Source: Pirellula sp.
GTDB taxonomy: Bacteria > Planctomycetota > Planctomycetia > Pirellulales > PNKZ01
Assembly: GCA_013822735.1 (NCBI GenBank)
Contig: PNKZ01000005.1
Span: 124,001-188,000 of the forward strand
DNA length: 64,000 nucleotides
Direction: 5' to 3'
This document shows, piece after piece, positions 4,667 to 48,007 of this stretch (its first letter is position 1; each line of letters starts with the position of its first letter). The notes beneath the pieces were generated by a model. The model searched no databases and was not told where the DNA came from. It worked only from the letters and a program-made list of their open reading frames with translations. The position numbers and the translations under genes are program-made.

Positions 4667-5635
4667 ATGAGCGAGTTGCCGCCGCCCCCGACGCTCGACG
4701 ACGTGCTCGCGGCCCAACGGACGATTCGCCCGCTCGTGCCCCCTTCCCCTCTCTATCGCCATGCAGGGCTGTGCGAACTGCTCGGGTGCGAGCTCTGGAT
4801 CAAGCATGAGAATTATCTCCCGACCGGCGCCTTCAAGGTGCGCGGCGGGGTGAATCTGGCGGCGAACCTCTCGCGCGACAAGCGGCGCTCGGGCGTGGTC
4901 ACCGCGTCGACCGGCAACCATGGGCAATCGATCGCCTTCGCAGCCCGGCACTTCGGCGTGCGCGCCGTCGTCTGCGCGCCGACGAACACCACCGACGTGA
5001 AACTCGCCGGCATGCGCGGCTACGGCGCCGAGGTGGTGCTTACAGGCGAAAACTTTGAAGAAGCGAGGCGTCACGCCGAAGGCCTGCGCGATCGCGACGG
5101 AATGCGGTTCATTTCTTCCGGAAACGAGCCGCTCTTGATTGCCGGCGTCGCCACCCACACGCTTGAGATCTTCGCGGAGTCGCCGCCGCCCGACCTGATC
5201 ATCGTGCCGCTGGGGGGCGGATCCGGCGCCGCCGGCTGTGCGCTGGTTGCTAAGAGCGTGAGCCCGCGAACCAAGGTGGTTGCCGTGCAAGCCGCCGGCG
5301 CACCGGCCGCGATGCTCACGTGGCGCGATCGCACGCCGCGCACGGCTCCCATTCGCACTGCGGCTGCAGGGTTGGCGACGGGGGAGTCGTTTGAGTTGCC
5401 GCAACGCTTGCTGCAGCGCCATCTCGACGATTGCCTGCTGGTGGAAGACGACGAGTTGTTCCGCGCGGTCCGTTTGCTGCTGGAACATGCGAAAACATTG
5501 GCCGAACCGGCCGGGGCGTCGCCGTTGGCCGCCGCGTTGCGTATGGGCGAGTCGCTCCGTGGTCGGCGCGTCGTGCTGATTCTCAGCGGCGGCAATATCA
5601 GCCCTGCTGAACTTCGCCGAGCCCTAGATTCCTAG
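4667..5635 (+). CDS. threonine/serine dehydratase-like PLP enzyme
   Basis: A fold-type II PLP enzyme resembling the catabolic L-threonine/L-serine ammonia-lyases. The PLP lysine is in TGAFKVRGG near residue 47, the substrate loop is TASTGNHGQS, the phosphate-binding glycine loop is PLGGGSGAAG, and the C-terminal LSGGNIS motif is typical. At 322 residues it has no C-terminal ACT regulatory domain, which favours a catabolic rather than an isoleucine-biosynthetic role. The start at 4667 gives MSELPPPPTLDDV; an ATG three codons upstream is possible. It follows glgC by about 30 bases and may be co-transcribed, though the functions are unrelated. A serine racemase or threo-hydroxyaspartate dehydratase cannot be excluded from sequence alone. 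Confidence 0.88.
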   Translation: MSELPPPPTLDDVLAAQRTIRPLVPPSPLYRHAGLCELLGCELWIKHENYLPTGAFKVRGGVNLAANLSRDKRRSGVVTASTGNHGQSIAFAARHFGVRAVVCAPTNTTDVKLAGMRGYGAEVVLTGENFEEARRHAEGLRDRDGMRFISSGNEPLLIAGVATHTLEIFAESPPPDLIIVPLGGGSGAAGCALVAKSVSPRTKVVAVQAAGAPAAMLTWRDRTPRTAPIRTAAAGLATGESFELPQRLLQRHLDDCLLVEDDELFRAVRLLLEHAKTLAEPAGASPLAAALRMGESLRGRRVVLILSGGNISPAELRRALDS

Positions 5636-44016: not shown

Positions 44017-44425
44017 GCGTCCCGCCTCTCCCACTGGGAGAGGCCGACGAGCCGGAGCTCGTCGGGTGAGGGCCGCGCGGCAAAAAGCTCGGCCCTGAAC
44101 ATTCGACGACGCCGCACCCGGCGCACTACTCCCGACTAGCCCCGCTCTCGCAAGCGAGGGGACGATTGAGCTCTGATGCGTAATGAGAGTGACGGATGAC
44201 AGGTGATGAGTGATGAGTGATGAGTGATGAGTGACGAGTGACAGGTGACGATTGACGTGCGGACCGTCACCTCCCCTCGCCCCTTGCGGGAGAGGGGCCG
44301 GGGGTGAGGGGCAACTCCGCCTTCCATCAGTCTCCGCCGCTCGCTACTTCTCGCCACTTATCACTCGCCTAGCGAGAAATAGGTCGACCCCCCTGGGCAT
44401 CGACGTGCTCCGTCTTCGGAGCCCG
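44017..44425. other. 410-bp intergenic region with simple repeats
   Basis: It holds a CTCTCCCACTGGGAGAG hairpin just after the permease stop (about 44025-44041) that may terminate the ABC operon. It also has a tandem TGATGAG run (44201-44240) and a region of inverted CCCTCGCCCC/GGGGCCGGGGGTGAGGGG character (about 44272-44311). I see no gene here. It forms the left boundary of the cassette array. Confidence 0.55.
44201..44240. repeat. Tandem TGATGAG-type microsatellite
   Basis: The 7-base word (G)TGATGA is repeated about five times, ending in degenerate copies. A complementary run of CACTCGC words is at 46559-46587. Confidence 0.7.
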
Positions 44426-44620
44426 ATGCCGCAGTCGGCAAGCTTCTCGAAATGGATCGAGAAGCATCACGACCTGAATTCCGCTGCGCAAGAATTGCTC
44501 GGTCCCTTAGCGCGATGTAATATCGCAGGAAGCCTGTCGAGGGAAACGACTAAAGGCGCAGGCGCCGTCATTCGACCGGGCATTTATATCCCGCGCCGGC
44601 GCAAGATAATAACTAGTTAG
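44426..44620 (+). CDS. possible small ORF upstream of the first cassette
   Basis: A 64-codon frame whose product ends PGIYIPRRRKIITS. Its last 46 bases (44573-44618) are duplicated at 45225-45270. Its TAG stop overlaps the crossover-like box GTTAGGC. The product resembles no family I know. It may be a cassette gene tail or a chance frame across the 3' half of a recombination site. Confidence 0.25.
   Translation: MPQSASFSKWIEKHHDLNSAAQELLGPLARCNIAGSLSRETTKGAGAVIRPGIYIPRRRKIITS
44573..44618. repeat. 46-bp direct repeat, copy 1
   Basis: A 46-base segment ending in AACTAGTT, repeated at 45225-45270 with one mismatch. Homology stops within the GTTRRRY box that opens each cassette, at the predicted crossover position. 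Confidence 0.85.
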
Positions 44621-44622
44621 GC
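44616..44622 (+). other. Cassette boundary box GTTAGGC
   Basis: A perfect match to the GTTRRRY crossover box of integron attC sites. It lies 16 bases before the ATG of the SMI1/KNR4 gene. Confidence 0.6.
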
Positions 44623-44631
44623 CCTTCTCGC

Positions 44632-45051
44632 ATGCGCTCGCTGTTCCAAACCGGTAGCGACTGGGAAGCGTTCGCGCCGCCGCTTAGCTCAGACGAAATA
44701 GCTGATGCGGTCAAAATACTCGCATACACTCTTCCGGCTGATTTGATCGAACTTTATCACACGTGCAACGGCGGCCAGGGGTCTTTGCCATATCAGCCCT
44801 GGAACTTCATCCTCTGGGGTCTGGAAGACGTTGTTCAACTCGCCGAACACGATCATTACAAAAAATACTACGGCTCGTACCTGTTCTTCGGTACCAGTGG
44901 CGGAGGCGAGTACTTTGGTATGGATAAAGCGATCCAAGTATTCATCATGGACCCGATTGCAGGTGAAGAGAGCATTATTGTGGTTGCAAAGTCGTTCCAA
45001 GAGTTCTTGGCGAACGTTGGCTTTCAACCGCCTGATGGTTTTCCCGATTAG
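44632..45051 (+). CDS. SMI1/KNR4 (SUKH) family protein, cassette gene
   Basis: A 139-residue cytosolic protein. SUKH-fold features are present: LPADLIELYHTCNGGQG (the L-P-x-x-L/Y-x-x-x-x-x-x-N-G-G core), then WGLEDVVQLAEHDHYKKYYG, FFGTSGGGEYFGMDKAIQ, and a terminal SFQEFLANVG. SUKH proteins are commonly immunity proteins against polymorphic or contact-dependent toxins. It starts 16 bases after GTTAGGC and stops 6 bases before ACCTAAC, the organisation of an integron gene cassette. No cognate toxin is encoded nearby, consistent with a solitary immunity cassette. Confidence 0.85.
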   Translation: MRSLFQTGSDWEAFAPPLSSDEIADAVKILAYTLPADLIELYHTCNGGQGSLPYQPWNFILWGLEDVVQLAEHDHYKKYYGSYLFFGTSGGGEYFGMDKAIQVFIMDPIAGEESIIVVAKSFQEFLANVGFQPPDGFPD

Positions 45052-45057
45052 TTTTCG

Positions 45058-45170
45058 ACCTAACAATTTGCTCCAGTTGTCCCGCCGGTCGACGGCACCT
45101 TTGCCTCACGGGCTTCGATGGCATTAGAATATTCGCGGCCCGTTCAACTTCGTGCGGGCAACTGGAGAAT
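45058..45170 (+). other. attC-like site 1 (disrupted)
   Basis: The R''-type box ACCTAAC is at 45058-45064. GCTCCAGTTG (45070-45079) pairs with CAACTGGAG (45159-45167), and further bases around CCCGC/GCGGG extend the stem. The expected GTTRRRY partner box at the right end is missing; a 44-bp palindrome begins three bases later. Confidence 0.65.
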
Positions 45171-45172
45171 AG

Positions 45173-45216
45173 AAAGGGGACATTCTGATTTATTTAAAAA
45201 GTAGAATGTCCCCTTT
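45173..45216. repeat. 44-bp REP/MITE-like palindrome, copy 1
   Basis: Perfect 14-base arms AAAGGGGACATTCT / AGAATGTCCCCTTT flank a 16-base A/T-rich loop. It is 43/44 identical to 46270-46313. It resembles short REP or miniature elements mobilised in trans by a Y1 transposase; no such gene is in the window. Confidence 0.8.
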
Positions 45217-45224
45217 TATTTCCC

Positions 45225-45270
45225 CGACCGGGCATTCATATCCCGCGCCGGCGCAAGATAATAACTAGTT
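45225..45270. repeat. 46-bp direct repeat, copy 2
   Basis: It differs from 44573-44618 by one base and runs into the second cassette's boundary box. It lies directly after the 44-bp palindrome. Confidence 0.85.
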
Positions 45271-45274
45271 TGGG
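45268..45274 (+). other. Cassette boundary box GTTTGGG
   Basis: Imperfect GTTRRRY box (the fourth base is T and the last base is G). It lies 16 bases before the ATG at 45284, the same distance as in the first cassette. Confidence 0.5.
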
Positions 45275-45283
45275 CGTTTCGAG

Positions 45284-45610
45284 ATGGAGCTGCGTGTCAA
45301 CGAAGTTTGCCAGGGAGCTAGTGGCGGCAGTTATATCGCCCGATATAGCGCAACGCTCACTATCGTGCGGGGAACGGCGTCCCCACAGATCGAAGTCGCA
45401 AACACCATTCCAAAGGACGCTGAACCAACCTTACTTCGAGCGAGTATTGAACACATCGCGCGCGGAGTCGATTCTGTTCTACGGCCACGCCAACTGTCGG
45501 GGGTCATGACGATTCATGATCTCGTGATTCACGATGTTGATTGCAAGCCTCCGCGATACGAACGAGCGACAGTCGAGGAATTGACAAAAGCACTCGCTGA
45601 TTCCGCCTAA
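45284..45610 (+). CDS. unknown small cassette protein
   Basis: A 108-residue soluble protein of no family I recognise. It opens MELRVNEVCQGASGGSYIAR with beta-strand pattern, and a conserved-looking core (VMTIHDLVIHDVDCKPPRYE) lies near residues 75-95, followed by a helix (VEELTKALADS). There is no signal peptide or membrane segment. Its stop codon TAA lies inside the GCCTAAC box of the next attC-like site, a compact arrangement common in gene cassettes. Codon composition is less GC-rich than the chromosome genes around it. Confidence 0.7.
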   Translation: MELRVNEVCQGASGGSYIARYSATLTIVRGTASPQIEVANTIPKDAEPTLLRASIEHIARGVDSVLRPRQLSGVMTIHDLVIHDVDCKPPRYERATVEELTKALADSA

Positions 45611-45728
45611 CAACGCGATCCAGTTGTCCCTGCGGACCATCGAATGTTTGCGTCGTTCACTTCGGTGACTGTATCCTGGTAATCGGCCTCGCTCACTTCG
45701 AGCGGGCAACTGATCAACACCGTTCGGC
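45605..45728 (+). other. attC-like site 2 (intact architecture)
   Basis: R'' GCCTAAC (45605-45611) faces R' GTTCGGC (45722-45728); the complement of R'' would be GTTAGGC, a 6/7 match. L'' GATCCAGTTGTCCC (45617-45630) pairs with L' GGGCAACTGATC (45704-45715). One extra C in L'' (GATC-C-AGTTG) would be unpaired; on the bottom strand this is a G, the expected extrahelical base of an attC. The total length of 124 bp lies in the attC range. The next gene begins 13 bases later. Confidence 0.7.
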
Positions 45729-45740
45729 CTCAGGGAAACG

Positions 45741-46193
45741 ATGCTGCGCCCCGCCTACCCCGACGATGGGCCCGCTGTCGCGGCTGTATTGATCGCGTCG
45801 CGCCGGGTGTTCCTTTCGTATGCGCCAAGTGCCCATACTGATGAAGACGTGCATCGCTGGGTCATCGACAAGCTCATCCCGTCCGGTGGCGTCGTCGTAT
45901 GGGAGCAGTCCGGGGCGGTTGTCGCGGTCATGGCAACCTCCCACAGTGACGCGGTTTCCTGGATTGATCAGATGTACGTGGCGCCCGGCTCAGACGGCCA
46001 AGGGATCGGCAGCAAGCTACTCCGGCATGCACATGGTCACCTTCGTCGCCCGATCCGCCTCTACACGTTCCAGCAAAACATACGTGCCAGGGCCTTCTAC
46101 GAGCGCCACGGCTACAAGGCTCTTGAGTTCACCGATGGCCGGAGCAACGAAGAGAAGTGCCCCGATGTACTGTACGAACTCTCGCCGCCATAA
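45741..46193 (+). CDS. GNAT family N-acetyltransferase, cassette gene
   Basis: A 150-residue protein. Motif A is MYVAPGSDGQGIGSKLLRHA (Q-G-x-G-x-G/A), followed by LYTFQQNIRARAFYERHGYK, the motif B region with an A-x-x-F-Y-E-x-x-G pattern. The N-terminal MLRPAYPDDGPAVAAVL is a typical GNAT opening. It starts 19 bases after the GTTCGGC box. GNATs are among the most frequent cassette-borne genes, usually modifying a small molecule or antibiotic. Substrate unknown. A second, unrelated GNAT is at 16001. Confidence 0.88.
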   Translation: MLRPAYPDDGPAVAAVLIASRRVFLSYAPSAHTDEDVHRWVIDKLIPSGGVVVWEQSGAVVAVMATSHSDAVSWIDQMYVAPGSDGQGIGSKLLRHAHGHLRRPIRLYTFQQNIRARAFYERHGYKALEFTDGRSNEEKCPDVLYELSPP

Positions 46194-46198
46194 ACTCA

Positions 46199-46260
46199 GC
46201 CCTAACAACTCGCTCAACCTGACGCGCGGAGGCAGCCAACCCTTGGCCGCTCCAGGCGCC
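46199..46260 (+). other. attC-like site 3, remnant
   Basis: GCCCTAACAACTCGCTCAACC follows the GNAT stop and resembles the 5' half of an attC site, but the matching 3' arm is absent. A GTTGAGC word at about 46342 could be a displaced partner, beyond the second 44-bp palindrome. The array probably ends here. Confidence 0.4.
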
Positions 46261-46269
46261 AGAAAATAA

Positions 46270-46313
46270 AAAGGGGACATTCTGGTTTATTTAAAAAGTA
46301 GAATGTCCCCTTT
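46270..46313. repeat. 44-bp REP/MITE-like palindrome, copy 2
   Basis: Same arms and loop as 45173-45216 with one base different. Both copies sit immediately downstream of an attC-like 5' half. Confidence 0.8.
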
Positions 46314-46474
46314 CCTACTTCTACGCAACGCTTACGACCAGAATGTTGAGCAGCAAGAATCGCAAGCCCAATGTTTTTGTCGTCACGGCTCCACTCGCGG
46401 TCTTTGGCAGAAGGCTCGTTTGCTTTGCGTTATTGTGTACGGGCCGCGCTTGTCGGCGACCGGCAGTCTACACA

Positions 46475-46504
46475 GCGAGCGGCGGGGTTGATCCCCGCCG
46501 TCTG
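46475..46504. repeat. 31-bp GC palindrome repeat, variant copy
   Basis: Contains GCGAGCGGCGGGGTTGATCC, a variant of the 31-bp element; it faces the exact copy 18 bases downstream, forming a larger inverted pair. Confidence 0.7.
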
Positions 46505-46521
46505 CGAATGGGCCCTGCGAT

Positions 46522-46552
46522 CCGGACGGCGGGGGTAAACCCCGCCGCTCGC
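46522..46552. repeat. 31-bp GC palindrome repeat, exact inverted copy
   Basis: The reverse complement of 29290-29320, identical over all 31 bases. It lies 30 bases beyond the stop of the ceramidase-like gene. Confidence 0.8.
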
Positions 46553-46582
46553 TTCTTTTCACCACTCGCCACTCGCCACTCA

Positions 46583-48007
46583 TCACTCGTTCCTCGCCCG
46601 TTCCACCGCCGTGGTCGCCGCCTTCATCACGCGTTCTTCTACGTCGACGCTGAACGGGCCGGGGAACCTCCCGAAGAGCATCGCGCCGCCGGCTTCGTAG
46701 CCTCCTTCGAGCAGCACTCGCTTCGACGGGATGTACGCGAACACGTCGTTCGAATAGCCGGCGGCCCAGACGATCGGCTTCTTGGTCGCGCCTGCGCCGT
46801 CGGCAGCGCCGGCGGATGTGCCGGTGAAATCGCCCGCGAAATCGCGCTGGGCCCGTAGCGCGTAATCGATCACCGTTTCGCCGGGGAACGCCACGATGGT
46901 CAGCCCGTCGCCGAGTTGCACGGCTTGCACCGGCGCGTCGTATGTCGTCGCGATCTTGCCGTTCTCTGCCAGCTCCTTCAGCAGCCGGGTCGCATGTCGG
47001 GCCTCGTACTCATTGGGCGACTTCGTCTGCCGCTCCAAGATTTCTTTCGGCGGCGGCGGGGCGAACTCCAGCGGCGCTGGCACCAAGGCCGCCGTCAACG
47101 AGCCGGCGATCGGCAACACCGGCGACGATTGCAAAGCCGCTTCCACCGCGATGCCGAGCGTCTTGCCGTGGTGCCGCGCCAGTTCCAATTCGCCGCGAGG
47201 GTAAGGGTTCTGATCGCCGCCGCAACCCATCAGGAAATGGGCCGTCGTGCCCGGATACTTCTCTTCCAGATACTGCTGCGCGTAGCCCGCGTAGTCGCCG
47301 CAGAACTGAAAGAAGCTGAGCGTCGTATTGTGACAAGCGTAGCCGAACAGCACGGCGCGGAGCTTGTCGTCGGTGCCGGCAATTTTCAACACCGGTACTG
47401 TGTGATCGACCGGGCCTGCGCTCCACGGCTTGTTCTGATAACCCTTGTCGCTCGGCGTGCGGCGATTCATCGCGAACCCGCACCGTGCCTGCACGTAGCT
47501 TACTTTCGCCGGGGCGAGATTTCCGATCGCTTCGCCGACCAGCGCAATGAGCTGCGTTTGCAACTTCTCAAAGTACGCGAGCCCTTGCCGAGCACGCTCG
47601 TCGGAAAGAGCGAGAGTTTCCTTCTTGTAGCTGCGAAATTCCGGTCCGCAATGCGTGTGGGAAGCGTTCAGCAATAATCGCTCGGGCGGCAATCCGTGTT
47701 GGTCTTTCACGGCGAGCGCCACCGCTTCGCGCAGGTCGCGCGGAATGCCGATCAGGTCGCACGTGACGAACACGAAGCGCCGGCCGGCGTCGTCTTCGAG
47801 CGCGAGCGCCTTGCAATACAAATCGAGCGCCACGCCTTCCGACGGTTTCTTCCGGCTCGCATAGCCGGCCATCCACATGGGCTCCGTCGGCGTCACCTTC
47901 ACGACGGCGGTGCCCGCCTTCCAATCGCCGGCCTCGGCGACGGACGTACTTGCGACGAACATGACCAGCGCGCAGGCGCAGCATAGGAATCGACGAAGGG
48001 TGGGCAT
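46583..48007 (-). CDS. secreted neutral/alkaline ceramidase-like protein
   Basis: A 474-residue protein with a signal peptide (CCACALVMFVASTSVAEA). Family features of the neutral/alkaline non-lysosomal ceramidase N-terminal domain are visible: VVKVTPTEPMWMAGYASR, FVTCDLIGIPRDL, LLLNASHTHCGPEF (with the zinc-binding His pair) and MGCGGDQNPYPRG. It may hydrolyse an N-acyl linkage of a sphingolipid-like or other amphiphile, but planctomycete members of this family are uncharacterised. The C-terminal immunoglobulin-like domain of classical ceramidases is not seen, and the length is shorter than the ~650 of the bacterial enzymes. Confidence 0.87.
   Translation of the reverse strand: MPTLRRFLCCACALVMFVASTSVAEAGDWKAGTAVVKVTPTEPMWMAGYASRKKPSEGVALDLYCKALALEDDAGRRFVFVTCDLIGIPRDLREAVALAVKDQHGLPPERLLLNASHTHCGPEFRSYKKETLALSDERARQGLAYFEKLQTQLIALVGEAIGNLAPAKVSYVQARCGFAMNRRTPSDKGYQNKPWSAGPVDHTVPVLKIAGTDDKLRAVLFGYACHNTTLSFFQFCGDYAGYAQQYLEEKYPGTTAHFLMGCGGDQNPYPRGELELARHHGKTLGIAVEAALQSSPVLPIAGSLTAALVPAPLEFAPPPPKEILERQTKSPNEYEARHATRLLKELAENGKIATTYDAPVQAVQLGDGLTIVAFPGETVIDYALRAQRDFAGDFTGTSAGAADGAGATKKPIVWAAGYSNDVFAYIPSKRVLLEGGYEAGGAMLFGRFPGPFSVDVEERVMKAATTAVERARNE

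Follow-up and report, generated by a model that had tools for sequence, protein, structure and literature searches.

Loss of the integrase gene with the cassettes kept is a known fate of integrons. According to an extract of PMC12444791, sedentary integrons of Xanthomonas have had intI deleted, truncated or frameshifted with the arrays kept, and arrays of at least two attC sites without an IntI gene nearby are proposed in PMC9024848, likewise cited from an extract, to be degraded integrons. As for the planctomycetes, extracts of three further papers report a known integron of Rhodopirellula baltica (PMC3108266), a Planctomycetes covariance model built on chromosomal attCs (PMC8352920) and a list of integrons for the phylum Planctomycetota (PMC9668308).

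The 64-kb stretch analysed here, hereafter called the window (G000:C5:124001-188000), comes from the 6.88-Mb draft genome G000, consisting of 38 contigs, and carries an array which is very probably a sedentary integron of the chromosome, beheaded and in part scrambled. It is composed of a 27-codon stub of intI, the region between intI and attI, attI itself and three co-oriented cassettes, coding for a SUKH protein, an unknown protein and a GNAT protein, and it does not represent a new kind of element. The array is integrase-less like those described in the extract of PMC9024848, from which it differs in keeping attI and 27 intI codons and in having two of its three attC sites truncated. With the integrons of Xanthomonas, as far as the extract of PMC12444791 goes, it shares the lineage-specific loss of intI, the retained cassettes and the presence of attC clusters elsewhere in the chromosome; in that case, however, a single locus beside ilvD is concerned, whereas here, in other organisms, there are several attI heads, without shared flanking genes in the comparisons made, and REP-type hairpins at some of the breaks. 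What is fresh is the genus-level picture, comprising an intact intI, stubs, dispersed attI heads and an array-free place, together with the suggested link of some breaks to REP elements.

The array and what remains of its head

The three open reading frames reported in an earlier note made from the sequence alone are present (Table 1), and the spacing it gave was exact: the boxes GTTAGGC (44616), GTTTGGG (45268) and GTTCGGC (45722) start 16, 16 and 19 bases upstream of the respective ATG codons, the boxes ACCTAAC (45058) and CCCTAAC (46200) lie 6 bases past the stop codons and GCCTAAC (45605) includes the stop. Its assignments of the first and third products to the SUKH and GNAT families are borne out as well, with ORF2 falling in no family. 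The three GTTRRRY-like boxes had all been read as parts of attC, which is right for 45722, whereas 44616 belongs to attI and 45268 to a partial copy of attI. Of the attC-like sites, attC2 is complete, but attC1 has lost its R' arm at about position 45164 and attC3 has kept only its left half. The array has the properties of a cassette array, namely inverted repeats (R''/R' and L''/L') together with a conserved fold in its attC sites, and single small ORFs in one orientation, each stopping at or near the following attC. With attC1 and attC2 recognized by our own attC models and no integrase present, it also contains the two or more attC sites without an integrase by which a free-standing attC cluster (CALIN) is recognized.

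Table 1 Features of the array and its surroundings, in window coordinates.
Feature	Position	Strand	Evidence
Stretch without counterpart in G396 (about 150 bp there)	44018..46615 (2,598 bp)	.	BLAST of flanks; flanking genes
intI 5' stub, 27 codons from GTG, VMLLDPFREACRLRHRAPKTEHVDAQG	44390..44470	-	similarity stops at about 44389; 67% identical to intact G395 IntI
Candidate cassette promoter TTGCTC-17-TAATAT, between intI and attI	44495..44523	+	consensus reading only
Putative attI, core GTTAGGC 44616-44622	44573..44622	+	aligned with six other copies
Cassette 1, SUKH/SMI1-KNR4 protein	44632..45051	+	PF09346 E 6.2e-15
attC1, type 1, R' arm lost	45058..45164 (model match 45058-45178)	+	R1 65.7 bits, E 4.6e-20
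REP-type hairpin 1, at attC1 break	45176..45213	.	exact pattern; starts 12 bases past attC1 remnant
Second, partial attI copy (right half), before cassette 2	45225..45274	+	93% identical to 44573-44626 over 54 nt
Cassette 2, 108 aa protein, no family	45284..45610	+	no Pfam or NCBIfam match
attC2, type 1, complete: R'' GCCTAAC, L'' CAGTTG, L' CAACTG, R' GTTCGGC	45605..45728	+	R1 79.0 bits, E 1.6e-24
Cassette 3, GNAT acetyltransferase	45741..46193	+	PF00583 E 1.5e-14
attC3, left half of type-2 site, right arm lost	46200..46236	+	R2 13.8 bits, E 0.0023 in 3 kb
REP-type hairpin 2, after broken attC3	46273..46310	.	exact pattern; starts at most 40 bases from attC3 half

The attC sites were searched with two models, neither of which contains a site from the window: R1 (type 1), made of 12 aligned sites of G000 that came up in a BLAST search of this genome with the region as query, and R2 (type 2), made of 17 sites from the taxonomic family to which G000 belongs. 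The type-1 site is 124 nt long, and the second, shorter type of about 95 nt emerged among the R1 matches. R1 gives two matches in the 64-kb window (attC1 and attC2), with the third-best match scoring 8.2 bits; they stand far above background, where the earlier note had named the lack of any attC hit as counter-evidence, and they support the core of its reading, that is, integron cassettes with attC sites and no integrase. No R1 match in the window corresponds to attC3; this site and a type-2 attC from the same-genus genome G395 agree at 25 of 29 bases, and a 73-base query of this site against plasmids returned only one irrelevant 21-base match. No Rfam family was found in the window at the gathering thresholds.

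It had also been stated that the intergenic segments fold with mirrored arms. By folding energy the outcome is mixed, with z of -4.6 for attC1 and -0.26 for attC2, the latter being no better than its shuffles, and the structural evidence was therefore taken from the model and from covariation, which do favor the fold. In an alignment of 58 R1 matches, which was fitted to the model, includes one double from the opposite strand as well as the training sites and leans towards the structure, 87.3% of the pair cells are standard (0 of 500 shuffles reach the value, and slid partners are 26-36% paired), with two-sided changes in 27 of the 30 pairs. The 12-sequence alignment alone contains little covariation (6 of 30 pairs).

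The SUKH protein of cassette 1 has a relative with 26% identity (E 9e-8) in G205 (L087:8720-9133), encoded between an intact intI and a type-2 attC. At that locus (L087:8614-10148) the SUKH cassette and the attC lie downstream of the intact intI in the same orientation, the layout in the genus studied here being divergent. ORF2 of cassette 2 is present in two of the 392 sampled genomes of the phylum, G000 included. Its relatives at L188 (61% over 28 residues) and in G077 (28%) are not informative, although L188 does give a weak type-2 attC match (E 4.6e-4), and the structure predicted without relatives is poor (mean pLDDT 54.5). A translation-factor domain was considered for ORF2 on a by-eye likeness only and was rejected; Pfam at E 10 found nothing.

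As the earlier note claimed, no tyrosine recombinase is encoded in the window (no PF00589 match at E 0.001), and no intact intI (TIGR02249) adjoins the array. Its description of an attC cluster without an integrase holds in that respect, but attI has been kept, as have the 27 codons with which intI begins. The DNA at 44389-44597 is 77% identical over 208 bp to the start of the intact G395 intI with its upstream region, and 44389-44622 is 77% identical over 235 bp to a locus on contig C6 of the same genome holding a 5' fragment of intI. By protein search alone the stub is weak (E 0.57), so its assignment stands on the DNA alignment. The sequence contiguous with the stub is taken to be attI by homology and position, the six other copies aligned with it being two from G000, three from G395 (one of them cut by a contig end) and one from G396. 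The 54-base repeat that it forms with the copy at 45225 is no part of attC. Since the head, i.e. the intI stub and attI, is still attached, the array is to be regarded as an integron that has eroded and not as an attC cluster standing by itself.

The candidate cassette promoter has an exact first hexamer in five of seven aligned heads and an exact second hexamer in four; it was not picked up by a stricter promoter scan. A promoter-like TTTATA-16-GATAAT is located within attI at 44583-44610 (3 found by the scan vs 1.3 expected). The second attI copy contains a promoter-like TTCATA-16-GATAAT at 45235-45262, and a GC palindrome forms the spacer in both copies.

Integron remnants in the genome and its relatives

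In G000, R1 detects 20 sites at E ≤0.001, namely the 12 from which the model was built, attC1 and attC2 of the window and six others, among which those on C12 (27 bits) and C19 (24 bits) are weak. R2 detects 19 further places at E ≤0.01, a count that leaves out five opposite-strand doubles and one R1 site, and 10 of these are training sites. This amounts to at least 39 attC-like sites, forming with five head positions 20 clusters, 19 of which hold attC. As each genome search scored the best 150 candidates, the numbers are minimum values, and two additional attC sites lie on contigs of the same genome at L080:9970-10068 and, as a partial site, at L077:6421-6476 (C9). Heads or intI fragments were found at four loci, namely in the window and on C6, C9 and C2. 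The intI fragment on C2 (L085:7286-7426) is of another type, contains an in-frame stop and is divergent from attC at 2321-2441 and 5122-5220, this locus being another decayed integron. The whole-genome search for intI proposed in the earlier note found no integron integrase above the cut-off in the G000 assembly. The best matches of G000 to the IntI profile were considered as stand-in integrases and rejected: they reach 82 bits against a cut-off of 265 and are XerC/D-like by eye, and such matches occur likewise in 14 of 14 control genomes.

Of the 392 genomes sampled from the phylum, 71 have an integron integrase above the curated cut-off; in the order to which G000 belongs, four of 11 other genomes have one. 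Within the family it is found in one genome out of seven, the same-genus G395 (TIGR02249 372.8 bits, cut-off 265), which has a listed contamination of 8%, though its attI head matches the genus. Six of the seven family genomes, including G000, have an R1 match (weak only, 3e-5, in G393), and G394 has none at E 0.001. At eight loci with intI in other families R2 finds attC near the integrase gene in six at E ≤1e-6 (L086, L087, L088, L090, L092 and L093; the intI of L090 has an in-frame stop), reaches only 0.075 at L089 and gives no match at L091. As R2 was trained within one family, these matches tie its sites to genuine integrons by more than likeness. R1 finds attC at two of the same eight loci, L087 (3.7e-11, about 2 kb from intI) and weakly L088 (0.0015, about 7 kb), so the type-1, 124-nt attC of this genus is rare near the planctomycete intI genes examined.

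Heads like that of the window occur on C9 of the same genome, at two more places in G395 and at one in G396, and the seven heads are pairwise 54-91% identical. Fourteen comparisons of stretches of 5-19 kb, made to test whether the heads are orthologous, revealed no shared flanking genes, with matches limited to the head, attC and short repeats. Presence/absence polymorphism, which had been named as a further touchstone of the cassette reading, is seen at the syntenic site in the same-genus G396. The flanks are represented by convergent permease and ceramidase-like genes, whose G396 proteins are 75% and 81% identical to those of the window, and the short gap between them has no similarity to the 2,598 bp found here. 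This gap (L169:3323-3472) contains a different hairpin repeat, of the CACTGGTGG type, and thus does not represent a clean ancestral site. In G395 and G392 the ceramidase-like gene is accompanied by no attC match (R2 in the stretches compared, R1 in those contigs); in G392 the permease gene lies on a different contig, and in G395 it was not found.

REP-type hairpins at the breaks

Two of the breaks in the window are adjoined by a REP-type hairpin, GGGGACATTCT...AGAATGTCCCC, which occurs in exact form at six places in G000, the other four being C2:219745, C2:551631, C6:182744 and C7:73076. A third hairpin of this type is found on C6, about 14 bases away from where the intI similarity stops. Five of the six exact copies, with the exception of C7:73076, are located no more than 2 kb from an attC or attI, in a zone that makes up 1.4% of the genome (four of six at 1 kb and three at 500 bases), this being a post hoc enrichment in which the two window copies are included by choice; when they are left out, three of four lie within 2 kb, which corresponds to about 1e-5 for a 1.4% zone. 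Among inexact copies found with the window as query, C2:218310 and C2:628148 are beside attC, and C7:73074, C1:571271 and C1:39508 are not. By eye, no REP hairpin is present at the intI break of the window (44389), the C9 head or the G396 head, and the G395 heads L173 and L174 are broken at hairpin-rich sequence of other kinds.

The palindrome is tied to a RAYT gene in the same genome, as expected of a REP element: the one RAYT gene looked at, on C1 (L075:838-1509, NF047646 80.8 bits, cut-off 80), is accompanied at its 3' end by a half arm of this hairpin, and it lies far from known attC. An extract of PMC8266576 points to a parallel between RAYT and IntI, in that both enzymes work on folded single strands. 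A limited literature search found no reports of REP elements breaking integrons, and the word integron is absent from PMC3733652. Judging from the positions of the hairpins, a link of some breaks to these elements is suggestive. A broader proposal would be that REP/RAYT elements preferentially land or stay in integrons, with bottom-strand attC hairpins or lagging-strand single strands perhaps attracting the HUH transposase, and are one of the agents by which attC is broken and intI beheaded, and that dispersed attI heads devoid of intI are loaded or unloaded in trans by the one integrase that some members of the genus keep; we consider this proposal as a whole unlikely.

Origin and fate of the array

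Could the three small genes be unrelated, and the boxes around them be due to chance or to a repeat family that has nothing to do with integrons? Box pairs alone are indeed weak evidence, four such pairs occurring on both strands of the window, and the energy folding of attC2 is unexceptional, but given the model scores, the covariation, the presence of such sites near intI in other families and the attI homology this explanation is extremely improbable. It is also very unlikely that the window holds a free-standing attC cluster that never had its own integrase and was seeded by cassette insertion in trans: the dispersal of attC-like sites over 19 clusters, with heads or intI fragments at four loci only, would agree with such an origin, whereas the contiguity of attI and the intI stub with cassette 1 speaks against it.

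Unlikely, though compatible with erosion of the array, is an intact intI lying in a gap of the G000 assembly and still acting on the sites in trans. Contig C35 ends inside an attC (C35:29848), C6 starts with one (C6:1), there is one in the first 0.7 kb of C17 and of C26 (C17:618 and C26:467) and the G395 contig carrying intI starts inside attI (G395:C4:1), so integrons are places where assemblies of this genus break, and more cassettes or an intI may be hidden there. On the other hand, no IntI above the cut-off is found in 6.88 Mb with a listed completeness of 99%, the best candidates being of the XerC/D-like kind described above, and the window array is broken at attC1 and attC3 regardless.

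For the eroded chromosomal integron, the reading preferred here, a history can be suggested in which the order of events is the one we infer. A working IntI of an ancestor would have loaded the cassettes at attI, joining the folded bottom strand of attC to it; a later deletion would have taken nearly all of intI, and through REP-linked rearrangements attC1 and attC3 may have lost their right arms and the second attI half may have come to lie before cassette 2. At present the cassettes probably persist as ordinary genes that are read from the putative head promoters. The only complete attC is attC2; if IntI were supplied in trans, its exchange with the core of one or the other attI copy could set free cassette 2, or cassettes 1 and 2 as one block, and cassette 3 would no longer be releasable on its own.

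The decay of a chromosomal integron is thereby documented within one genus by an intact integrase, stubs and an array-free place, and with the models R1 and R2 other groups could map remains of this kind. Should the association with REP elements be borne out by further genomes, two mobile systems that work on single-strand DNA would be linked, and a possible cause would be named for the common integrase-less arrays.
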